Shown piece after piece: positions 41,596 through 61,394 of a stretch of 64,000 bases of DNA. Where the stretch lies: the NCBI RefSeq assembly GCF_021379005.1, contig NZ_CP075171.1:868001-932000 (forward strand). The letters run 5' to 3'. Every line of letters begins with the position of its first letter. Positions within the stretch are counted from its first letter, which is position 1. The position numbers were made by a program, and so were the translations under genes. The notes beneath the pieces were generated by a model. It ran no database searches and was not told the origin of the DNA. It saw nothing but the letters and a program-made list of their open reading frames with translations. Origin of the DNA: Leptodesmis sichuanensis A121. Its GTDB lineage: Bacteria; Cyanobacteriota; Cyanobacteriia; Leptolyngbyales; Leptolyngbyaceae.

Positions 41596-41668
41596 GGCTC
41601 AGTAGCTCAGTGGTTAGAGCAGGGGACTCATAAGCCCAAGGTCGCAGGTTCAAATCCCGCCTGAGCCA
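41596..41668 (+). tRNA. trnM-CAT: tRNA-Met (CAT), with mispaired stems
   Basis: A 73-nt cloverleaf with anticodon CAT in loop CTCATAA. The acceptor stem GGCTCAG/CTGAGCC and D stem GCTC/GAGC are perfect. The anticodon stem GGGGA/GCCCA has two mismatches (first G opposite A and last A opposite G), and the T stem GCAGG/CCCGC has one A-C. It may be an elongator tRNA-Met, or a tRNA altered at an integration site: an integrase gene lies 190 bases downstream. No CCA is encoded. Confidence 0.85.
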
Positions 41669-41693
41669 TCAAGAAAACGAAGCATAGAAGTCC

Positions 41694-41732
41694 TTTGGGG
41701 AGGTTCCTTCAAGACCTCCCCAAAAATTTTTT
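41694..41732 (+). terminator. intrinsic terminator after tRNA-Met
   Basis: TTTGGGGAGGT (41694-41704) and ACCTCCCCAAA (41714-41724) form a perfect 11-bp stem with a nine-base loop, followed by six Ts at 41727-41732. Confidence 0.88.
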
Positions 41733-41758
41733 AAGCCATTTTGGATGTTTTTGGGTCA

Positions 41759-41780
41759 AAAACTGGTGTAAAACTGGTGT
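41759..41780. repeat. two tandem 11-bp repeats near the presumed att site
   Basis: AAAACTGGTGT occurs twice head to tail, at 41759-41769 and 41770-41780. It lies between tRNA-Met and the integrase, where integrase arm sites or excisionase sites are expected. The role is inferred from place only. Confidence 0.6.
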
Positions 41781-41855
41781 AAAAATTTGGCACCCTGAAC
41801 TGCTGAAGCGTTATGCTGGACTTTAAGGAGTTCAAAAATACTAAAGGAGCTACCG

Positions 41856-43049
41856 ATGTCCTAATCTACACAACGCCATGCAAAAGGTGCCGTAGCTATC
41901 CTTGTTTCCAACAATCGCTTACAGTTGCGATTCAATTACGGCGGGAAACGACACTATATATCGCTTGGACTTGCCGACACTGTATTGAATCGAAAGATTG
42001 CCGAAGCAAAAGCCAAACTGATTGAATCGGACATCATCTATGAGCGCTTAGATTTAACCCTGGAGAAATATAAACCTCAGACAGCCCTGAGTGTCGTTAC
42101 ACTAGTTACACCACTTCCTACACCACCCAAGCTTTCCCTCCTTGATCTTTGGCAAAAATATACAGACTTTCAGAAAGAGCACTTGGAGGAGACGACAATT
42201 ATTCGGGACTATGGAAAAATCGAAAACCGGATCAAGAAGTTTCCACAGGCTTTTTTGGAGGATGCTGTTGCAATCCAAGCCCATTTACTGAATAACTACT
42301 CTACTGAGGTCGCCAAACGTACCTTGAAGCAACTTAGCGCTTGTTGTAACTGGGCGATTAGGAAAAAGCTGATTTCTGAAAACCCCTTTAAAGAGTTAGC
42401 ACAAGAAATCAAGAGTAGAAAGACAAGCCGGGTATCTAGAAAGCCTTTTTCCAGAGAATGTGTAGCTGCAATCATTGCCGCTTTCGAGCGTGATACTTAC
42501 TCATCTAAATTCGCTCCTGTATCACATTCCTACTATGCACCTTATGTAAAGTTCTTATTCCATACTGGTTGCAGACCAGAAGAGGCGATCGCATTGAAAT
42601 GGAAACATATTGAGAAAAACCGCATATACATTTGTGAAGCGGTAGCAACTGATGTACGCATTAGAAAGGTCACGAAAACTGATAAACCACGTTATTTCCC
42701 TATCAATGAGGAATTGAGAGCCATCTTTGAAGCAATTAAGCCTGAACCATGCCTTCCAGATGCGCTAGTTTTTCCTGCTAAAAATGGAAAAGAACTAGAT
42801 ACTCATAATTTCTTGAACCGGATCTGGAAGCCCATTGTTCAACGGTTAGTTGATGAATGTAAAGTCAAGGAGTACTTGCCGCAGTATAACTGTCGGCACA
42901 CTTTTATCACGCTCTGTCTGGAAGATGGAGTTCCATCTAGGAGAGTTGCCGATTGGTGTGGCACTTCTGTTGCTGTGATTGAGGAACACTACGCAGGAGC
43001 AATTGCCCACATACAAGTTCCCTCATTTGGACTTGGTCCAAATGAATAG
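41856..43049 (+). pseudogene. tyrosine integrase with stop at codon 3
   Basis: A tyrosine recombinase of about 397 codons. The core has HTGCRPEEAIALKWKHI (box I Arg), YNCRHTFITLCLEDG (box II Arg/His) and VIEEHYAGAI (Tyr nucleophile). The N-terminal part (KGAVAILVSNNRLQLRFNYGG) is also family-like. That conserved frame begins at ATG 41856, with AAAGGAG upstream, but codon 3 is TAA (41862-41864). Downstream, the first possible restart is TTG 41925, which would lose the first 20 conserved residues. It may be a real nonsense mutation, a sequence error or a restart. It lies next to tRNA-Met and likely made the insertion. Confidence 0.8.
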
Positions 43050-45779: not shown

Positions 45780-46771
45780 ACGCGATGTGCGACTAAAACT
45801 ACTGTGACACAAGCTGGTCGAACTGCAAGGGGTCAGCACTGTGACGGTTGAGCCATCGACAAACGGTATGAGCTAGAAGCTTGCGATTGATGCGACTGGT
45901 CAAATGCCATAAATCTCGTGCCCAGACCTTCTCAATTGAGAAGCGTTCGACTAATTGCCCAATCACCGTTTCAATCAGTCGTCTAATTCGTTGGAGTAAC
46001 GCCACCCAAGCAGGCTCACGAGTATCCTGCATATTGGAGCGCAGGGCAGTTTCTAGTTCAATCCCCACAGCTCGAAGCTCTTGCTGGAGAGCGGCAGAGA
46101 GGTAACCTTTGTCGCCAATGAGCCAACCATGAATCGTCTGCACCATGTCCCACAATGCCTCGCGTTCACTGCCATTGGCTGGGGTGAGGCTAAACCCTGT
46201 AATCACCCCTGTCGCACTGATGAGCAAATGACCATGAAAGCCATAATAGAACTGCTTTTTAGCCGCGCAGTAACCGTAAGCAGCAATCCCCTTGAAACTG
46301 CGACACTCCGGGGCACGACTAAACCCACACAACGGGATAGGAATGCCATCGACCAGATGCACCTCATCGGCAAAAGCCCCTAACTCAGTGGACAGGTGCT
46401 GCTGGAGTCGTTGCTTGTACTGCCAGAGGTTTGCAGCCTGACGGACAAAGGCAGAACGACTGCCCAAGCCAGGAAACCACTCCAACCAGTGCCGACGGAA
46501 ATAGCGCCAAATTGCCTGGTCTGTATCAATCCCTTGGTACTCTGCCACAATTTCCATCGTCATTACCTCACTGTCGGACAAGGCAGGGGCAAATCCTTTG
46601 GCTCGGATGGGTTGCCCTTGAGTGATTGCCTTCAGCAAATCGTCCACACAGCAAAAAACTGCAATGATAAACTCTTCGATAGTAAACATAAGTCCCACTC
46701 GCGCTAGATAGGTTGTACTTCTAGCATCGTTCAGTGGGGCTTTCCTTTGCCAAACTTAGTTGCACATCGCG
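45780..46771. mobile_element. IS982-family insertion sequence, copy 2
   Basis: The 992-bp element sits inside the ISAzo13 transposase gene. A 7-bp duplication TAATATC flanks it at 45773-45779 and 46772-46778. Removing the IS and one TAATATC rejoins the host frame exactly. Terminal repeats are the same as in copy 1. Confidence 0.92.
45799..46698 (-). CDS. IS982 family transposase, copy 2
   Basis: A 299-residue transposase identical at the protein level to copy 1 (one silent base differs). Open end to end with intact element ends, so it may still transpose. See the copy 1 entry for motifs. Confidence 0.92.
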   Translation of the reverse strand: MGLMFTIEEFIIAVFCCVDDLLKAITQGQPIRAKGFAPALSDSEVMTMEIVAEYQGIDTDQAIWRYFRRHWLEWFPGLGSRSAFVRQAANLWQYKQRLQQHLSTELGAFADEVHLVDGIPIPLCGFSRAPECRSFKGIAAYGYCAAKKQFYYGFHGHLLISATGVITGFSLTPANGSEREALWDMVQTIHGWLIGDKGYLSAALQQELRAVGIELETALRSNMQDTREPAWVALLQRIRRLIETVIGQLVERFSIEKVWARDLWHLTSRINRKLLAHTVCRWLNRHSADPLQFDQLVSQ

Positions 46772-48147
46772 TAATATCCCATTTGGGCAGAGCTTCAGAC
46801 CGTTGCCAGAAAGGGAGATAATCTGCTAGCTCCTCAGCCAATACCTTGACCCCTTTTTCATAAATGCCTTCAACCAGATAAACGACTGGATTCATTGCTT
46901 TCCAGGTCATGTGACTGGCCCATTGAACTGCCGCTTCTACCGAATCCAAGATGGCTCCATTCCAATACTGCTCAAGCGCTGCCCAGCATCGTTCAATGGC
47001 ATTGTATTTACTGTGATAAGGCGGGTAGTAAATCAATCGAATCGGGAGCATGATCGTTTGGGCGAGTTCAACCATGCGTTTGATGAACTGAGTGCGGTCA
47101 CTGCGAGTGGCGGGTCCTCCATCTAAATTGATCACCCATTCCTCAATCTCCGGGTAATGGTCTTGATTGTCCTGCCACCACCACTCCAAACAATCGGCTA
47201 TAAAATCGCTGGTTTCAGCCGATTGACCGAAGTAAATCGACAACTCGTCGTTGTCGAGATTGAGAATGCCAAAGGCACTAACACCGACTGCCACTCACTA
47301 TCGTGGTCGTCGGCTTTTCTGGCTTCTAGAGTGCGATCCTTGCCATTACGCGATAGATTGCCGATCTTAACTTTGGCTTTGGTGTCAATCGAGAGCCTCA
47401 AGGACTTCGGATTGGCATCAGCCCGTTGATTCTCTTGAGCAACATTGTCAAAGATGGCATCGGTTTGAGCGATCTTCTTCAACGGTTTGACTTTTTGTGT
47501 TTTTTTAGGCGATATCCCATGCGATTGAGAATTGCCCCAATGGTCTGACGCGAAGGCAGTTGTTCCTCGTCGTAGCCCTTCTGCTCACTTAAGGCATCTC
47601 GGACGGCTTGGGCACTGATACGAGCATATAAGAAGGTCGATTGAAATTTCGGATCAGCTTGGGCTTGCCTGTCCACTAAACTGGCAATATCGGCTTCCAA
47701 ATTGACCAACACCACTTCGCTTTTATGCCGCCCTCTAGCTCGATAGTTATCAACACAGGTGATTCCACTGCGGCGTTCATGCAGACCCAGTTGCACACTG
47801 GCGCGATTCCACCCTAAAACCGTTTCCGTTTTCCGGGCTGAACCGTCAAAATAGTCCTCTGCAACTTTTGCGATAAAATCTCGCTTACGGTGTCCAGTCA
47901 GCTTTCGAGCAGCATCTTTCAGGCTTGCTTTAATCTTGTCGTCGAGCATGGTAAGGAGAGTGTTGTTCTAGAGATTCTCAGCCAGGAGAGGGATATTTCC
48001 GCTCTGCTCCCGCTAAAATGACTGGTATTTTATTTATTTGCAAGCTCCTAATTCCTCAAAAAATTGAAATTGGTTGTCAATTTCCACTCAAGTGATGAAT
48101 CAATGGTGCGTCTACCGAATGTCAAATCAACTTGACGAAGATTGAAC

Positions 48148-50562: not shown

Positions 50563-51992
50563 AAAGCGATCGATGAAGTGTGCTGGGGAACCAGATATTA
50601 CGACTTTCCCCAAAGGTTTTTGTGTTGCTGCTGGGCTGATCTCTGTGCCTGCTGAAGCGAGGTCAGCACATCCGGTGGTAGGCTGGAGACCTGTTGGCTA
50701 TCGAGCTTTGCCAGTCCCTCAGTCAGCAGGATTGTCTGGATCAGCGTTCCGTTCGGCAGTTTTACCAGGGCTAAAATTTGTCTAGATGGAGGGTAAGCGA
50801 TGGTGGTGACAGAGACTTGCCTACTGGAGGCTTGCAGGAGTGTTGCCAAAACGCCTGTCGCTTCGTGCTGCCAATGAGCAGGCGGGTGTGACTAAAATTT
50901 GATGTAGCTATTCTGCAAAAGTGAAGCCATAGCGATTAATCTTTGACCAAAATTGCTGCCATCGTCCTTGACTGTAACTCAAGGTTCGTAAGCTCAAAAC
51001 AATCCCCGCTCCATGTTCTTTCCACTTCATTCCAGAGCCACACAGACGTGCTTTGACAATGACTTTACATCCCGCTTCGGTGACTCCTGAGCCAATGGGT
51101 AAATGAGCAGCAATCGCCTCGGCATAGCGCATCTGATGGTGGTGATTGCGAAAGTAAGTGATGGCATCTTGTAATCCCTTTTGCACCGATTGACTCACCC
51201 GTTTCGGCACAATGGTTTCCATTTCTGTCAGCAGTCGTTGAGCGGCACCCACCTCGTGCTTCAGCAGATGACAATGCTCATCCATCCAGCTTTTTTGATG
51301 TTTAGGATTGCGGGGATGGATGGCTTTAGCAACGTTGTCGAGATACTGAGTGGCATGAAAGAAATCCAAAACTTGACTATCCGTGACGGGTTCGAGAAAC
51401 GTCCAATTCTCCGGTGCTCCATCGGCTAACCCTTGATAATGGGAGTTGGGATACAACCGTTTGATGTGTTCAATTTCTCGTCGCATTCGATCTAAAAAGG
51501 TTTGCCGTCCCTGTTCGGGTGCGGCGGCGACATAGGTGGTGTGGAGCCTTTCCCCTTGAGCATCATAGAGACTGAGGGTCCCAATCATGGCTTGGCGAAA
51601 TCCGTCTTTGCATAACAACAGGCAGGTGCCATCGACACCGAGACTGACCGTTGCCACCTCTACAGGTAATTTTGGTGTCTGATAGTGCCAATCCTCTTCC
51701 TTGAGCAAGGCAATCTCACCGACCGCTTCGGCTAACGTTTGCACAAACGAACGGTGGATCACTCGTCCATGATTTTCCCGCAAATCTTCTACCACTCGGA
51801 CACTACTCATCTCCGCATATTTGTGGGAGATTTGTTTGGCCAACCGGGGGGTTGAAGTCATGATGATCCGAGCATCGACTTCCAGGGGACAAAAGGTGGG
51901 TCCACCCGCGCTCGTTTGGTACACATGCCGATGTACTTCTACTGTTCCATAAGGGGTTTGATAGGTTTTGGGCAATTGTCCTTTACTCGTCC

Positions 51993-53381
51993 GGGTGTGA
52001 CTAAAATTTGATGTAGCTATTCTGCAAAAGTGAAGCCATAGCGATTAATCTTTGACCAAAATTGCTGCCATCGTCCTTGACTGTAACTCAAGGTTCGTAA
52101 GCTCAAAACAATCCCCGCTCCATGTTCTTTCCACTTCATTCCAGAGCCACACAGACGTGCTTTGACAATGACTTTACATCCCGCTTCGGTGACTCCTGAG
52201 CCAATGGGTAAATGAGCAGCAATCGCCTCGGCATAGCGCATCTGATGGTGGTGATTGCGAAAGTAAGTGATGGCATCTTGTAATCCCTTTTGCACCGATT
52301 GACTCACCCGTTTCGGCACAATGGTTTCCATTTCTGTCAGCAGTCGTTGAGCGGCACCCACCTCGTGCTTCAGCAGATGACAATGCTCATCCATCCAGCT
52401 TTTTTGATGTTTAGGATTGCGGGGATGGATGGCTTTAGCAACGTTGTCGAGATACTGAGTGGCATGAAAGAAATCCAAAACTTGACTATCCGTGACGGGT
52501 TCGAGAAACGTCCAATTCTCCGGTGCTCCATCGGCTAACCCTTGATAATGGGAGTTGGGATACAACCGTTTGATGTGTTCAATTTCTCGTCGCATTCGAT
52601 CTAAAAGGTTTGCCGTCCCTGTTCGGGTGCGGCGGCGACATAGGTGGTGTGGAGCCTTTCCCCTTGAGCATCATAGAGACTGAGGGTCCCAATCATGGCT
52701 TGGCGAAATCCGTCTTTGCATAACAACAGGCAGGTGCCATCGACACCGAGACTGACCGTTGCCACCTCTACAGGTAATTTTGGTGTCTGATAGTGCCAAT
52801 CCTCTTCCTTGAGCAAGGCAATCTCACCGACCGCTTCGGCTAACGTTTGCACAAACGAACGGTGGATCACTCGTCCATGATTTTCCCGCAAATCTTCTAC
52901 CACTCGGACACTACTCATCTCCGCATATTTGTGGGAGATTTGTTTGGCCAACCGGGGGGTTGAAGTCATGATGATCCGAGCATCGACTTCCAGGGGACAA
53001 AAGGTGGGTCCACCCGCGCTCGTTTGGTACACATGCCGATGTACTTCTACTGTTCCATAAGGGGTTTGATAGGTTTTGGGCAATTGTCCTTTACTCGTCC
53101 AATTCATCCCGCCCATTGCAATGGCACTGCCATCGGTATCAAACTGTTTGAGCGCTGCTCCACTGGCCAGAGTTCCTGCTTCATTCAGTACTGATTGGAT
53201 GGTTTCTTCGGTGTCTAGAAATGATTGACTCAGAGGAATAGTAATTTGAAGAGTGATTGACTCTGTTGTACTTTGGACAATAGTTGCGGTCATTCCTTGC
53301 CCCTCCACAAGTCTGGGAAAGAGAATCCAGTCTTCAGAGCATATCAGGTCTTACCTCCTACATCAAATTTTAGTCAAACCC
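51993..53381. mobile_element. ISKra4-family element B inside element A
   Basis: A full 1,389-bp copy with the same ends as element A lies inside it, flanked by an 8-bp duplication ACTCGTCC at 51985-51992 and 53382-53389. It is the same element as its host: sequence appears identical apart from a one-base deletion in an A-run near 52600. Confidence 0.9.
52017..53308 (-). pseudogene. ISKra4 family transposase of element B, frameshifted
   Basis: The transposase begins at ATG 53308 and runs to the lost base near 52600, where element A has five As and this copy four. The second part then starts afresh at MRREIEHIKRLYPNSHYQGL and runs to 52017. Neither A nor B therefore encodes a whole transposase. 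Motifs are as in element A. Confidence 0.88.
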
Positions 53382-53952
53382 ACTCGTCCAATTCATCCCG
53401 CCCATTGCAATGGCACTGCCATCGGTATCAAACTGTTTGAGCGCTGCTCCACTGGCCAGAGTTCCTGCTTCATTCAGTACTGATTGGATGGTTTCTTCGG
53501 TGTCTAGAAATGATTGACTCAGAGGAATAGTAATTTGAAGAGTGATTGACTCTGTTGTACTTTGGACAATAGTTGCGGTCATTCCTTGCCCCTCCACAAG
53601 TCTGGGAAAGAGAATCCAGTCTTCAGAGCATATCAGGTCTTACCTCCTACATCAAATTTTAGTCAAACCCGAGCAGGCAAGGGGGCTAATCCAGCCAGTC
53701 GAATCGATTGGATTGAACCGTTTGGTGCACATACAGTGAGATGATTACCTGTGATCGCCTCAACCACATAAAACGATGAATTTTGTGAGGCGAAGGTACT
53801 TTGCTTCTGGAGTAATGTTGGAACACCCAACTTCAGTCCAATGGGGAGCAATAGCGCGATCGTCCAGAGTAAGTAAACTCGTTTCATAACATCCTGCAAT
53901 TGACTCAGACATTCATTGATAAGCAGTTTGATTTTTCAAAAAGCTCAATTTT

Positions 53953-54690: not shown

Positions 54691-55337
54691 GGCTTTTGAT
54701 GCTCCTGCTGATGGGTCAGTTGAAGCTGAAGGTCATTGATCTTGGCATTGAGATGATTTAACCCCTGGGGATTATGTTGGATTAGGGCAGCAGTAAAGGC
54801 TCCGGTAAACCCAGCGGTGGCGATCGCCAGTACCGTAATTTCCAGAATCTTGGTCAAATCAAAGGCTTGGTTCCCAATCAGCAACCGAATTCGGTTGGAA
54901 CTGGGTTGCTGCTGATTCATCTGCTGAATTAAGTGCTGCATCTCCTCGATCTGAGTTTGCAGTTGTACCAGGTTGGGTATGAGCTTGATCAAAGGTTGCA
55001 GATGCAAATCCAGGTTGCTCAAGGAAGTCGTCAGTTCCGAGTGCGTTGCCATCAACTGCTGGTACAGCATCGTCATGCCCCTGGGTAATGGCTGAAGCTG
55101 TTTCGTCAATTGCTTGATTTGCTCCTGGATCGCGGGATTCACCGCAATCAACGTTGCTTGCTTCCCTGTCGTTGTGGGCAATGGCTTGACGGTTGAGCTT
55201 GACGTGGAGGGCGGCGAAGAGCCTGCGGCTTGGGGTTTGGGCTGGCTGGCGATCGTTCCCAGCGGTGCTTTCCCCAGGGTGGGTGGATAGACGGTGGATT
55301 GGGGTTTGCCCCGGTGGAGAGTCTTGAAGGTGGTCAT
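54687..55337 (-). CDS. coiled-coil protein with one membrane segment
   Basis: A 216-residue protein: a Pro/Ser/Thr-rich N-terminus (MTTFKTLHRGKPQSTVYPPT), a long helical part with QEQIKQLTKQLQPL and LQTQIEEMQHLIQQMNQQQ, then a hydrophobic segment ILEITVLAIATAGFTGAFTAAL and a short coiled tail. The start at ATG 55337 is set by AAGGAG at 55347-55352. Its first 479 bases overlap the end of the relaxase frame. The product may be a membrane or dimeric partner of the mobilization operon. The family is unknown. Confidence 0.72.
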   Translation of the reverse strand: MTTFKTLHRGKPQSTVYPPTLGKAPLGTIASQPKPQAAGSSPPSTSSSTVKPLPTTTGKQATLIAVNPAIQEQIKQLTKQLQPLPRGMTMLYQQLMATHSELTTSLSNLDLHLQPLIKLIPNLVQLQTQIEEMQHLIQQMNQQQPSSNRIRLLIGNQAFDLTKILEITVLAIATAGFTGAFTAALIQHNPQGLNHLNAKINDLQLQLTHQQEHQKP

Positions 55338-56499
55338 CGAAACTATCTCCTTGAGTGGTGTATCGTAGACGCTGTTTTTTATCTCGGAAAGAAATGAGTT
55401 CAGGCGATTGGTCAATTGCTTTCGCAATCGCAGCAAAACTGGTTTGCCCCATTCCTTCTCGCACAGCGGCTTTTTCCAAATCTTCACGCCGAAAGACTTG
55501 AGCGATGCGAGAACAGAAGGAGATCGCTTGATGCACCAACTCTTGAGCCATGTTCCAAAGTCTCTTCAGAGGATGAAGTTGTGGTTCACCCGGTGTGATT
55601 GCCTGAAGCCCTACTGCCTCGGCTTGCTGCTGCCAGGACTCTGCAAGATTGTCAGAGGACACCGTTTGCTTTTTAGCTCGACCAGAAAAGATGGTGGCTT
55701 TTGCCTTTCGCTCACTACTGGCCTCTTCTCCAGTCGCTGCTTTGATTTGTTCAGCCCGTTTGGAAAACTGGGTCAACTGATGATTAGAAAAGCCCTGAAG
55801 CTCCCACAATCCATGACCAGGGTGGGTAATGCGAATCGAATAGCCCAACGCCTGCACTTCTCGTGCCAACTCATTGCGATAAATCATGCCCAGCAGCATT
55901 TTTGTGCGATAGATGGCTTCATTGTCTAGGCACTGCCATTTGCCATCGGGTCGTTGCGTCAGATTGAGAATCAGATTGTGAGTATGTAGTTGTGGGTCAA
56001 GAGCACGGCTGGTTGTGTGCTGGAACTGAGCGATCAACAGTTTGCCCGTGATGATTTTCTGACGTTCACCGTTTACGGTGATACGGGTCATGGCGTAACG
56101 CTCTTCCAGGATTTGGAGCATCTGAGCGATCGCCTGCTGATGAGCAACTTCAAGGGTGCGATCGCCAAAGATGAGGGCCTGAATACTGACTGATTTAGGA
56201 GCACTTGCCGTTAAATCAATCCCGGCTCGTTCGAGGCTGGCTAACTGACCTTTGGCTGTAGCATTCTGCTGCTTTTGATGAACGCGCATTTTACTGATCA
56301 AGGTACATCCAGTCGAATCTTGACCGTGCAGGAGTAATCCTAACGTTTCAGACTGGATGGGTTGCCCAGGTTTCAAGCCCAATGGCATCGTCAATTTGCC
56401 ATGCCAGCCAGAGGATTGTTCCGTCTCACTGGTATTGCCTTCCTGAGCGTAGTAGCGACTGCCGTGGGTTGGCGTCACGTTGGTAATCGAGATGACCAT
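54859..56499 (-). CDS. MobF-type relaxase
   Basis: A 546-residue TrwC/TraI-like relaxase, which nicks oriT and leads the strand into a recipient. The N-terminal Tyr pair is in SRYYAQEG (residues 16-17), the conserved DLTASAPKSVSIQAL is at 95-109, and the His triad is at H161 (FQHTTSRALDP), H172 and H174 (LHTHNLILNL). The helicase domain of full TraI is missing. From about residue 388 the sequence overlaps the coiled-coil gene in another frame and looks non-globular, so the true protein may end earlier or be extended by this overlap. It starts six bases after the stop of the RHH-like gene. Confidence 0.88.
   Translation of the reverse strand: MVISITNVTPTHGSRYYAQEGNTSETEQSSGWHGKLTMPLGLKPGQPIQSETLGLLLHGQDSTGCTLISKMRVHQKQQNATAKGQLASLERAGIDLTASAPKSVSIQALIFGDRTLEVAHQQAIAQMLQILEERYAMTRITVNGERQKIITGKLLIAQFQHTTSRALDPQLHTHNLILNLTQRPDGKWQCLDNEAIYRTKMLLGMIYRNELAREVQALGYSIRITHPGHGLWELQGFSNHQLTQFSKRAEQIKAATGEEASSERKAKATIFSGRAKKQTVSSDNLAESWQQQAEAVGLQAITPGEPQLHPLKRLWNMAQELVHQAISFCSRIAQVFRREDLEKAAVREGMGQTSFAAIAKAIDQSPELISFRDKKQRLRYTTQGDSFDDHLQDSPPGQTPIHRLSTHPGESTAGNDRQPAQTPSRRLFAALHVKLNRQAIAHNDREASNVDCGESRDPGANQAIDETASAITQGHDDAVPAVDGNALGTDDFLEQPGFASATFDQAHTQPGTTANSDRGDAALNSADESAATQFQPNSVADWEPSL
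55347..55352 (-). promoter_or_regulatory. Shine-Dalgarno inside the relaxase gene
   Basis: The minus strand reads AAGGAG nine bases before ATG 55337, inside the relaxase frame. It supports a separate translation start for the overlapping coiled-coil gene. Confidence 0.7.
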
Positions 56500-56505
56500 C
56501 TGCCC

Positions 56506-56985
56506 TCACTGTTTTTCTTCTAGAATTTGTTCCAGCGTGGTTTGGATCTCCTCAACGACGGCTTCTCGTTCTTCGAGATCAGAAGTGACATCTATAGCAA
56601 TGCGCTCCACCAACACATGGATGCCATCCAGGATGGCTTCCAGTCGTTCCATGCGATTGAGAAACCGGGGTAGTTCCACACAGTTTGAACCCGGAATATC
56701 TTCCTTGAGAATCTGCTGCACCATATTCTGTAGGGTTGCAGAGGTCTGTTCCAGGTTTTCCAGGCGCTCCACTCCTGTTTTCAAAAGCAGTGTGCCGATG
56801 TCGGAGGGTGGAAGTTGGGTTAAGGGTGAGTTGGCCGATGGTGCCGTTTGCTGCTTCCATTCCGCCAGCCGCTCTCGAATGATTTGTGGTGCGGGAACCC
56901 CTCGCAGGAGGGCCGCCTGCTCAATTTCTTCTCCTTCGACCAGAGGTAGAGTCACGGTAATCTTTTTGGAAATATTGCTGGGCAT
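56506..56985 (-). CDS. relaxosome accessory protein, ribbon-helix-helix-like
   Basis: A protein of about 159 residues, start MPSNISKKITVTLPLVEGEE. The first 45 residues fit a ribbon-helix-helix (ITVTLPLVEGEEIEQAALLRGVPAPQIIRERLAEW); the rest is coiled-coil, with VERLENLEQTSATLQNMVQQ and RMERLEAILDGIHVLVERIA. That is like small accessory proteins of mobilization systems that bind DNA near oriT. The frame is open for 61 codons upstream of the chosen ATG but that part holds the repeat array. First gene of the relaxase operon. Confidence 0.68.
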   Translation of the reverse strand: MPSNISKKITVTLPLVEGEEIEQAALLRGVPAPQIIRERLAEWKQQTAPSANSPLTQLPPSDIGTLLLKTGVERLENLEQTSATLQNMVQQILKEDIPGSNCVELPRFLNRMERLEAILDGIHVLVERIAIDVTSDLEEREAVVEEIQTTLEQILEEKQ

Positions 56986-57054
56986 GGGTTTGAAGACTCC
57001 ATATCGGATGGATGATGAATGCAGAAGGTAAAAGATGGCGATCGCCATCTGGGA

Positions 57055-57168
57055 CGACCATAAATGACCGTAAGCGACCATCAGATGGCTGTAGACGACC
57101 ATAAATGGCGCTGGCTTAGGCGTTAGGTGTGGCACCGGATGAGATGGCGATGAGTGGTAACCGACCAT
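57055..57168. repeat. four CGACCAT boxes upstream of the mob operon
   Basis: CGACCAT occurs at 57055-57061, 57075-57081, 57096-57102 and 57162-57168. The first three are spaced 20 and 21 bases, about two helical turns. The box is the reverse complement of ATGGTCG, the core of the partition iterons. Confidence 0.75.
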
Positions 57169-57399
57169 TCAGGAACGGGGCGGATTCCATTGCCCATGTT
57201 TGCCATCACCGTTACTGTATCGCGGTGATCCGACATTCATCGGCAATTGATCGGAAATCCATGTGACAGCCCAGAATTTTGTCAAAAAAGTGGTCATTGT
57301 CACACGGATTGCTGATGGATGTCCGCTCAATGACCGATCGCACCCCTAAGCTGTCAGGCGAGTAGGTTCAGATGCCTGCTCTGCAAGGATTTCAAATTG

Positions 57400-57491
57400 A
57401 TGGTCGGATCATGGTCGGATCATGGTCGGGGTTGCTTCTCCCGAACGCTCTCTGCCCGAAAACATGGTCGGATCATGGTCGGATCATGGTC
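57400..57491. repeat. 11-bp iterons, presumed partition centromere
   Basis: ATGGTCGGATC occurs four times: 57400-57410 and 57411-57421, then 57464-57474 and 57475-57485. Each pair is followed by a partial unit (ATGGTCGG at 57422-57429, ATGGTC at 57486-57491). The clusters start 64 bases apart. It lies just upstream of parM, where the ParR binding site of ParMRC systems is expected. Confidence 0.85.
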
Positions 57492-57515
57492 ACCCAAAAA
57501 GGATAAAACATTGAT

Positions 57516-58655
57516 ATGGTCAAGATTCTAGACGTTCACTCTACAGCTGAAACAAAATCTAAACCTACCCTTTATCTAGCCGGGGATTTAGGTAAATCAG
57601 CCTGCAAGTTCTTGTACTGGGTCAAGGATGGAGACTTCCAACCCCTCTGGCTTGGCTCGGATGTGGTGGAGGGAGTTAGTGATGCCATTCTCAAGAAGTT
57701 TGAGGTGGGGGGGGATTTATCGGAATCCGCCTGGCTCAAGGTTGGCGAGCACAACATCCTGGTGGGCAATTCAGCGACCAGTTACAGTTCCAGCTTTGCC
57801 GCAGACAAGGTGCAGATTGCGGCATATCAAGTGGCAACCGCTCTGGGACTGGCGGCGATCTCATCTCAACTCTTGGAGTACAGCGCCGTTATCTCTCTGG
57901 CCATTCCTTTGAATGAGTTCCGCCATCGAGCCGAAATTGAGACCCAATTGAAAGCGATCGGCGAAGGGGTGACAGTGTGCGATCGCTCCCAACAGTTCAC
58001 CGTCAAAATCTCCTTTTATCCCGAAGGAACTGGACTGTATCTGCTGCATCGAAAAGAACGGGAACACCAGATGTCTGCTCCTTACACCAGGCGAGTTGTC
58101 GTCTTGATGATGGGGCATCGCAATTTGTCACTGCTGGTTTTCGAGGGCGGGAAGTTGAATGCGAACCTCTCTCAAACCAGCGATCGCCTTGGCTTCTGGA
58201 ACGGCTTCAAGACCGATGCTTCGAGTGCAGGGGTGCGAGAGCGGGATTACCACTCTCTGCTGGCGGCGGTTGTCAGTGGGAGTGCCGAGCAACTGTCTGC
58301 GGTCGAAGGGGGAGTCAAGGATTTTTCGGGAGCTGTTGATGTGATTCGTCAGGGTGAGATGAAACGATTGGATGCCTTCTGTCGCGACAATGTCATCGAT
58401 CTATTGGTGAATTCTACGCAAACCGATGTTCTGATTGGTGGTGGAGTGGCTCATGTGCTGCGTTCTGACCTCAAAGACTACTTTGCTGGATTGGGATTCT
58501 TAGAGCATCTGTATTTTGCGGATGCGATCGGGGGGCGGTTGCTGCTGTTGGCTGAACAAACTCGCAATGCTCAAGCCGATTTAGCTCGTCCGATGCGAAT
58601 GGCGGATGTCTACGGACTGGCACAGACATTGCTGGGTAAGATTCAGCGACCATAG
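57516..58655 (+). CDS. parM: ParM/StbA-like actin-family partition ATPase
   Basis: A 379-residue actin-like protein. Phosphate 1 loop LYLAGDLGKSACKFLYW at about 24-40, phosphate 2-like VVLMMGHRNLSLLVFEGG and the adenosine motif VLIGGGVAHVL are visible. Size and motifs match StbA/ParM-type plasmid proteins, which form filaments that push plasmid copies apart. ATG 57516 itself reads ATGGTC, like the iteron core. The ParR-like partner follows 11 bases later, and the iterons lie directly upstream. Confidence 0.85.
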   Translation: MVKILDVHSTAETKSKPTLYLAGDLGKSACKFLYWVKDGDFQPLWLGSDVVEGVSDAILKKFEVGGDLSESAWLKVGEHNILVGNSATSYSSSFAADKVQIAAYQVATALGLAAISSQLLEYSAVISLAIPLNEFRHRAEIETQLKAIGEGVTVCDRSQQFTVKISFYPEGTGLYLLHRKEREHQMSAPYTRRVVVLMMGHRNLSLLVFEGGKLNANLSQTSDRLGFWNGFKTDASSAGVRERDYHSLLAAVVSGSAEQLSAVEGGVKDFSGAVDVIRQGEMKRLDAFCRDNVIDLLVNSTQTDVLIGGGVAHVLRSDLKDYFAGLGFLEHLYFADAIGGRLLLLAEQTRNAQADLARPMRMADVYGLAQTLLGKIQRP

Positions 58656-58666
58656 GAGAGTGAACA

Positions 58667-59164
58667 ATGGTTTCTCCCAAGAAAATAGAACCCAAAGTCC
58701 GCAATCGCTCCGAGTTCTCCTACAAAACGGATGCTCAGACTCCATTAGCCACTGTCTTTGCCTATCTGAACGGCAAATTCTCTAAAACCTTTACTCAGCG
58801 GGAAGGCAAGCAGCGGGCGATCGATGCGTTGCTGGCGTTTTGGAGACCTTATGCCTTGAGAGCGAATAAATCTGCATCTGAGGAAGTCAGAGAAGCCGCG
58901 ATCGCATCGGTAGAAACCCTGTTTCGCCAGTTGCAACGAATTTGTGTCGATTTTGATGTGGATTCTCCCTATTCCTCGAATGAACCAATGGACTTCAGCG
59001 ATCTACTGGCAGCACTGACAACTCGTACCGAACAGATGACTTTTCCGCCTGAACCAGGATCTCAAGCTCAAACACCATCTCATCCTTCACAAACCAGAAA
59101 TGAATCACCCCCATCCGAAGTGATTTTTGTAAATGACGAAGAACTATTGGGAGATTTACTCTAA
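58667..59164 (+). CDS. ParR-like partition adaptor
   Basis: A 165-residue protein downstream of parM. The N-terminal half is basic and helical (KKIEPKVRNRSEFSYKTDAQ, REGKQRAIDALLAFWRPYAL); the C-terminal half is acidic and disordered, ending VIFVNDEELLGDLL. Position, size and the acidic tail fit ParR/StbB proteins, which bind the centromere and touch the filament with their tail. No strong motif is seen, so the call is partly from context. GGAGAG precedes the ATG. Confidence 0.72.
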   Translation: MVSPKKIEPKVRNRSEFSYKTDAQTPLATVFAYLNGKFSKTFTQREGKQRAIDALLAFWRPYALRANKSASEEVREAAIASVETLFRQLQRICVDFDVDSPYSSNEPMDFSDLLAALTTRTEQMTFPPEPGSQAQTPSHPSQTRNESPPSEVIFVNDEELLGDLL

Positions 59165-59996: not shown

Positions 59997-61394
59997 GAGC
60001 TATGTTTAATTCTGGTGTACGGCAAGAATGAAAAAACGGCGTACCCTGCTGGATAGAAACAAACACCAGCAAACAGGAATACACCGATGACTCAAGATAA
60101 ACTGGTTTCATTCAAAACACCAGATGAGCCTGGAACATTTAGCGATGCGCTGACTGAACTGGTTCGTAACGGTGCGCGTCAAATCATTGCCCAAGCAGTT
60201 GAAGTCGAGTTGCAGGAGTTTTTAGCCCAATACCAGAGCCTCAAAGATGAGCAAGGACGACAGGCGGTCGTGCGCAATGGCTACTTGCCTGAACGAAGCA
60301 TTGTGACTGGGGTTGGAGCGGTTGAAATTCAAGTTCCGAAAGTGCGAGACCGAAGCGGACAGGGGATTAAGTTTAATTCGCTGTTGTTGCCGCCGTATTT
60401 GAAGCGCGCTCAAAGTGTTGAGGAGGTGTTGCCCTGGTTGTACCTCAAAGGAGTCTCGACTGGGGATTTTTCAGAAGCTTTGGCATCGTTGCTGGGCACC
60501 CAGGCAGACGGGTTATCTGCGAGTACCATCAGCCGCCTCAAAGCGAAGTGGACTCAGGAGCACCAGCAGTGGCAACAGCGAACGCTCAGTGGCAAGCGGT
60601 ATGTGTATGTTTGGGCAGATGGGATTTACTTCAACATCCGCAACGAAGATGACCGACAATGTATTTTAGTCCTGATCGGAGTGACGGATACGGGCAGCAA
60701 GGAATTGCTCGGACTCGAAGCTGGATTTCGCGAGTCCGAGTTGAGTTGGAAACCGTTGTTGTTACGCTTACAAGACCAGGGACTCAAGCAAGCACCAGAG
60801 TTGGCGATTGGAGATGGTGCATTGGGATTTTGGAAAGCCCTCGCGCAGGTATTTCCGTCCACCCGCATCCAACGTTGTTGGGTGCATAAAACGGCGAATG
60901 TCCTCAACCACTTACCTAAAAGCCAGCAACCCCACGCCAAGTCGGCTTTACATCAAATCTACCTGGCAGCCACCAAAGATGAGGCAGAAAAGGCTTTTGA
61001 GCGATTCATCAAAACCTACGCAGCCAAGTATCCTAAAGCCACGGAGTGTTTAGCCAAAGACCGATCCGCATTGTTGGCATTCTATGATTTCCCGGCTGAG
61101 CATTGGGTGCATCTGCGCACCACCAATCCAATTGAATCCACTTTTGCCACGGTGCGCTTGAGAACCGATAAAACGCGAGGCTGTGTCTCCCAGGACAGCA
61201 TTCTGTCGTTGGTCTTCAAGCTTGTCCAGAGCGCTCAGAAGCGATGGTTACGGATTCGAGGCTTCAAACGATTAGGGGAGGTGATTGAAGGAGTCAAATT
61301 CAAGGATGGAATTCGCGTTGATTTACATCCCGATTCAGGAGTCAGTCAGGACGCTGCTTGATTCTTCTTCATACACCACATTTGACAATAACTC
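59997..61394. mobile_element. IS256-family insertion sequence
   Basis: An element of 1,398 bp with ends GAGCTATG and (complement) GAGTTATT, both continuing to a shared GGTGTA core. The 8-bp duplication AAAAAGTC flanks it at 59989-59996 and 61395-61402. It splits the Uma2-type gene in frame. Confidence 0.88.
60087..61361 (+). CDS. IS256 family transposase
   Basis: A 424-residue transposase of the IS256/MutA type. Motifs: VRNGYLPERSIVTGVGAVEIQVPKVRDR, LYLKGVSTGDFSEALASLLG, YVWADGIYFNIRNEDDRQCIL (first Asp), LAIGDGALGFWKALAQVFPSTRIQRCWVHKTANVL (second Asp, C/H box), and NPIESTFATVRLRTDKTRGC (Glu). The frame is open end to end and the ends look intact, so it may be active. Confidence 0.95.
   Translation: MTQDKLVSFKTPDEPGTFSDALTELVRNGARQIIAQAVEVELQEFLAQYQSLKDEQGRQAVVRNGYLPERSIVTGVGAVEIQVPKVRDRSGQGIKFNSLLLPPYLKRAQSVEEVLPWLYLKGVSTGDFSEALASLLGTQADGLSASTISRLKAKWTQEHQQWQQRTLSGKRYVYVWADGIYFNIRNEDDRQCILVLIGVTDTGSKELLGLEAGFRESELSWKPLLLRLQDQGLKQAPELAIGDGALGFWKALAQVFPSTRIQRCWVHKTANVLNHLPKSQQPHAKSALHQIYLAATKDEAEKAFERFIKTYAAKYPKATECLAKDRSALLAFYDFPAEHWVHLRTTNPIESTFATVRLRTDKTRGCVSQDSILSLVFKLVQSAQKRWLRIRGFKRLGEVIEGVKFKDGIRVDLHPDSGVSQDAA

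Follow-up and report, generated by a model that had tools for sequence, protein, structure and literature searches.

Adjoining putative oriT and parC sites between divergent MobF relaxase and ParM-type operons in Leptodesmis sichuanensis A121

The ParMRC partition system of plasmid R1 has clusters of 11-bp repeats upstream of its genes; to our knowledge it and oriT have no common intergenic region, nor do we know of a core sequence present in both. ParM and ParR of R1 stimulate TraI (PMC4949242). On R388, the MobF relaxase operon and a stability operon diverge across oriT; upstream of the stability operon, two sets of direct repeats recur every 11 bp (9 bp plus 2), and StbA acts on conjugation as well as on stability (PMC3098194, PMC3937220). 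SXT/R391, a chromosomal element, has an actin-type system, srpMRC, whose centromere occupies the same intergenic region as oriT, beside a mobilization gene; here SrpR is specific for srpC, and the neighbouring oriT is bound only non-specifically (PMC4489591). The partition proteins of NAH7 bind at transfer promoters and at oriT (PMC12421886), and an oriT oligonucleotide of the F plasmid contains the nic region GCGTGGGGTGTGG (PMC5422253). The original prediction for the locus described here took an array shared across a mobilization promoter to be new; a control region common to partition and transfer is already documented in R388 stb, NAH7 parS and R391 srpMRC.

The locus lies in a stretch of 64,000 nucleotides from Leptodesmis sichuanensis A121, referred to as the window; positions are those of the window unless another locus is named.

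Genes and genomic setting

The locus is carried on the single contig of a 5.35-Mb genome, and is thus chromosomal and not on a plasmid record. The relaxase, which is encoded beside a putative oriT (Table 1), matches Pfam TrwC (1.1e-74) and NCBIfam MobF (1.8e-75), and the motifs GSRYYAQEGN and LDPQLHTH were recognised in it by eye. The relaxase operon begins with a gene, situated between the relaxase gene and the sequence boxes discussed below, for a ribbon-helix-helix (RHH) accessory protein. Residues 5-52 of its predicted model match CopG, Arc, NikR and AmrZ, with modest scores and with low model confidence outside this segment, which is thus predicted to have the RHH fold of a TraY/TrwA-like relaxosome protein. 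Homologues are present in the related loci L031, L104, L105 and L106; on plasmids, none was found at E 0.01.

The ParM-type protein of the window has no Pfam match when searched alone, and 4 of 15 aligned members of its family match ALP_N. In the PDB, a profile of 15 ParM relatives finds CorM (3.7e-24) and, with values of 9e-5 to 4e-4, structures of ParM; relatives found on plasmids by tblastn are mostly annotated as ParM or StbA. By these sequence comparisons the protein is a distant actin-like protein, with the features expected of the ATPase of a type II ParMRC system. The nearest solved structure to the family is that of CorM (PDB 9rmi); no paper on CorM in cyanobacteria was found in the literature collection searched. 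More than 20 loci have conserved the ParR-like gene downstream of parM. Its product has no significant match in the PDB by sequence or by structure, and the helices of its predicted model (26-34, 44-67 and 72-95) fit an RHH-like or ParR-like layout. All four reading frames (relaxase, RHH, ParM and ParR) are intact.

Other features of the window surround this locus. A tRNA-Met followed by a tyrosine integrase gene (41925-43049) occupies 41596-43049 and may mark where an integrated element starts on the left; a search of the window for an att repeat found the 3' end of the tRNA only once. Transposase genes (ISAZ013-like, DDE_Tnp and Mutator) lie around the locus in the regions 45799-47294, 50908-53597 and 60087-61361, as does a duplicated gene, one copy of which is partial.

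Table 1. Positions of genes and sequence features at the mob/parM locus (numbering of the window)
Feature	Coordinates	Strand	Remarks
MobF/TrwC-type relaxase	54859..56499	-	546 aa; no helicase part detected
RHH accessory protein	56506..56985	-	start at MPSNISKK
Perfect 18-nt palindrome AGATGGCGATCGCCATCT	57033..57050	.	between boxes and RHH gene
oriT-side box ATGGTCG	57055..57061	-	CGACCAT on +
Weaker oriT-side box	57065..57071	-	TGACCGT on +; 10-bp register
oriT-side box ATGGTCG	57075..57081	-	
Weaker oriT-side box	57086..57092	-	TGGCTGT on +
oriT-side box ATGGTCG	57096..57102	-	
Predicted nic site	57120..57132	+	GCGTTAGGTGT followed by GG; cut predicted between 57130 and 57131
Fourth oriT-side box ATGGTCG	57162..57168	-	past nic
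Three degenerate 11-bp units; left arm of imperfect inverted repeat	57227..57268	+	
Right arm of imperfect inverted repeat	57298..57339	-	74% over 42 nt
Putative parC, cluster 1	57400..57432	+	three 11-bp units, ATGGTCGGATC consensus
Putative parC, cluster 2	57464..57496	+	three 11-bp units
ParM-type actin-like protein	57516..58655	+	379 aa
ParR-like protein	58667..59164	+	165 aa; predicted N-terminal RHH-like arrangement

The intergenic region and its conservation

On the parM side, ATGGTCG is found on the forward strand at 57400, 57411, 57422, 57464 and 57475, and ATGGTCA at 57486. The full 11-mer ATGGTCGGATC starts at 57400, 57411, 57464 and 57475, with partial units at 57422 and 57486, so that the four perfect and two partial iterons of the original prediction are indeed present. 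The 11-bp periodicity is strong (z = 9.0 against dinucleotide shuffles), and the arrangement of three plus three units directly upstream of parM looks like a parC, the direct-repeat centromere of type II ParMRC systems. The parM start codon also reads ATGGTC, as had been pointed out, but it lies 30 bp past the last unit and off the 11-bp register, and the resemblance is probably due to chance. An additional CGACCAT at 58647 is likewise within chance expectation (7.4 occurrences expected per window, 14 found, 9 of them in the arrays).

On the other side, CGACCAT occurs four times on the forward strand before the divergent RHH-MobF operon (Table 1). The spacing of 20-21 bases originally given applies to the first three copies only; the fourth follows 66 bp on, beyond a nic-like motif. 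Weaker boxes lie between the strong ones, which gives this array a period of about 10 bp, versus 11 bp at parC; the 10-bp periodicity has a z of 3.3 against dinucleotide shuffles, and a lag of 7 scores similarly (z = 3.2). The nic-like motif reads GCGTTAGGTGTGG and matches the F nic at 11 of 13 bases, and the cleavage position given in Table 1 is predicted by analogy with F. If it is right, parM and parR would be transferred to the recipient ahead of the other genes, with the relaxase gene coming last. Boxes are found on both sides of nic in the window and in L031 and L104. Because they flank an F-type motif, which is moreover kept across families of loci, the relaxase-side boxes are read here as a probable part of oriT as well as of the promoter region.

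Between nic and parC there is an imperfect inverted repeat with 42-nt arms 29 nt apart, possibly a TraM-like site; L031 has an inverted repeat of other sequence in the same place (3107-3137/3165-3195). The degenerate inverted iteron that had been reported at 57227 was confirmed; it belongs to a set of three degenerate 11-bp units, GATCCGACATT, CATCGGCAATT and GATCGGAAATC, at 57227-57259. The palindrome AGATGGCGATCGCCATCT includes the HIP1 core GCGATCGC and is terminator-like on the reverse strand. A scan for sigma-70 promoters gave results at chance level.

Relaxase and ParM searches over up to 390 related genomes yielded 108 relaxase places. A listed parM was found within 4 kb for 52 of these, in 39 genomes, and in all 52 the two genes are divergent. 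The divergent MobF-oriT-parC-ParM order is thus widespread in cyanobacteria, and Picosynechococcus PCC 7003 and Leptolyngbya boryana carry the same arrangement on named circular plasmids. The motif GYRTNNNGTRTG was found in 41 of the 46 divergent mob/parM intergenic regions examined, many of which are related to one another and do not represent independent cases; it often follows directly upon an inverted repeat, as in F. It is kept across families that differ in their surrounding sequence, as is expected of the nic of a MobF oriT. The back-to-back placement of the putative oriT and parC is therefore a conserved feature. As to shared control, the original prediction stands in that relaxase and ParM/ParR-type operons have an intergenic region in common, but is not supported, as worded, in that one core marks both sites.

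Close relatives of the region itself are few. No nucleotide match was found in plasmids, nor any close relative in viral contigs or in a first scan of genome contigs, and a second scan returned only the contig of L031 (Leptolyngbya sp. ULC077bin1). In L031 (2820-4200) and L104 (2200-3300) the arrays on both sides change fast while the gene order and nic stay the same, which suggests rapid co-evolution of RHH-type proteins with their sites. The loci of family C have a gap of about 320 bp; no RHH gene was seen in them, and the same array test detected no clear array on either side.

One or two readers of the arrays

We consider it fairly probable that the intergenic region holds two sites read by two proteins, oriT by the RHH protein and parC by ParR, forming a back-to-back control hub of a mobilizable element. 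This reading builds on the boxes and their periods, the nic-like motif, the protein families, the divergent gene order and the differing cores in related loci. The MobF relaxase would nick between GCGTTAGGTGT and GG in an oriT on the left of the intergenic region. In the systems that have been studied, RHH accessory proteins organise the relaxosome and repress their own operon. The TraY/TrwA-like RHH protein of the window would bind the CGACCAT-type boxes, spaced by about 10 bp on both sides of nic, help to build the relaxosome, and probably repress the RHH-relaxase operon. ParR, in turn, would bind the 11-bp ATGGTCGGATC units of parC on the right and seed ParM filaments.

The sequence common to both arrays bears directly on this reading. 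ATGGTCG is present five times on the parM side and four times on the oriT side of the window, each array reading toward its own operon, and a matrix made from the parC of the window matches its own oriT side with p = 0.005. The original prediction was that one core marks both sites, with the same region in related elements as a test of it. In three relatives that have parC arrays of their own, the matrix made from each parC finds no match on the oriT side (p = 0.42, 0.41 and 0.56 for L031, L104 and L107, respectively). The cores differ accordingly: L031, in which parM is 71% and the relaxase 55% identical to that of the window, has GTTCCAT at parC versus GCATCTG/GCAACTG around nic, and L104 has TACCTTC at parC versus TGTGGGC on the oriT side. 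A shared core as a conserved rule is thus rejected; the sharing was seen in the window alone. The parC of family B (AAGTCGT) is strong, but the resemblance near the RHH start is weak and inconsistent; a shared core there (CGTGAAT) was considered and rejected, as the matrix matches are mixed, with p between 0.005 and 0.79 over 16 related loci. Since the cores of relatives are unrelated, the shared 7-mer is a feature of the genome of the window and not of the module. As a rule, then, each array changes independently of the other, consistent with recognition by two proteins that differ in specificity, and the relatives have the same kind of 11-bp parC array with other cores.

Not all observations favour two readers. 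In two family B loci, L041 and L114, sequence upstream of the RHH gene matches parC (p = 0.005 and 0.03), the ParR model lacks a significant fold match, and the exact sharing of a 7-mer in four and five copies is rare by chance. When the two halves were shuffled 3000 times by mononucleotides, no 7-mer ever turned up four times on both sides. The chance that a random 7-mer array matches some register of the parC unit is about 0.5-1.2% per comparison, before allowing for selection of the finding, and the shared core was picked out because it looked striking. Among 382 non-cognate pairs of loci, most of which lack strong arrays on both sides, none has a 7-mer at least three times on both sides; by a softer matrix measure, one non-cognate pair (z = 3.3) exceeds the window (z = 2.8). 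The identical core, seen only in the genome of the window, might be due either to chance or to a recent local change.

In an alternative reading, one protein, ParR or the RHH protein, would read ATGGTCG on both sides in the lineage of the window, coupling segregation to relaxosome assembly and operon repression. Assembly and repression of the MobF relaxosome and of the actin-type segregation machine would then depend on a single protein. R388 StbA and NAH7 ParB/ParR are precedents, and the orientation of the copies, the cognate matrix and the comparison with non-cognate pairs are all in its favour. We regard it as a tentative and on the whole doubtful possibility, because in the closest relatives both arrays persist but their cores are unrelated, the periods of the arrays differ (10 vs 11 bp), the predicted DNA-contact strands of the RHH protein and ParR differ (SKKITVTL vs RSEFSYKT), and SrpR of R391 does not bind oriT specifically.

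The locus might also be a decaying chromosomal relic whose arrays have no present function, which would be compatible with the anatomy proposed above. It does occupy a chromosomal site among several transposases, and a search of the whole genome for a TrwB/VirD4-type coupling protein (PF10412, PF02534) found none, despite the intact MobF relaxase; the element may thus need a helper or be inactive. Helpers can, however, mobilize elements that lack a coupling protein of their own, none of the four frames is disrupted, and neutral decay would have blurred the parC units, which are near-perfect. We regard a relic as unlikely. It is highly improbable that the CGACCAT boxes act solely as an operator for the promoter of the RHH-relaxase operon and that the nic-like motif is there by coincidence: the boxes do lie directly upstream of the RHH gene, and RHH relaxosome proteins commonly autoregulate, but the motif is close to the F nic, has boxes on both sides, and is kept in 41 of 46 loci though most of the surrounding sequence is not.

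Relation to known systems

A conserved cyanobacterial MobF-oriT-parC-ParMR unit would place vertical and horizontal inheritance under one control region of 0.3-1.4 kb. It would offer dozens of natural variants in which the array sequences have changed and the order is kept, allowing an interaction between segregation machine and relaxosome, as reported for R1, to be tested without dependence on a single model plasmid. Predicted oriT sites for cyanobacterial elements are a further gain.

The locus resembles R388 in its divergent MobF layout, in the 11-bp repeat period and in the presence of two sets of repeats. StbA and StbB are, however, not an actin-type ParM and ParR; the genes found here encode ParM and a ParR-like protein, and the locus is thus not of the R388 Stb type. 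A shared regulator was established by experiment in R388 and is here suggested by sequence alone. With SXT/R391 the locus has in common the actin-type partition genes, the placement of oriT and the centromere in one intergenic region, and the chromosomal location, but the neighbouring gene there is MobI, whereas here it is a MobF relaxase. Like R1 ParMRC, it has upstream clusters of 11-bp repeats, together with a ParM-type and a ParR-like protein.

The putative oriT resembles that of the F relaxosome (TraI, TraY and TraM), with a similar nic (GCGTGGGGTGTGG in F versus GCGTTAGGTGTGG here) and an RHH-type accessory protein with sites, here predicted ones, near nic. It differs from F in its small relaxase without a helicase, in candidate RHH sites on both sides of nic, and in the adjoining parC. 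NAH7 par/oriT likewise links partition to transfer, through a system of the ParA/ParB type and not the actin type. CorM is the best solved relative of the ParM profile; the gene described here has retained an array resembling parC and a relaxase gene next to it. In the literature collection searched, no paper combined ParM, cyanobacteria, plasmid and relaxase. The linkage of partition and transfer is itself known, but the cyanobacterial MobF-oriT-parC-ParMR unit looks new in its make-up.
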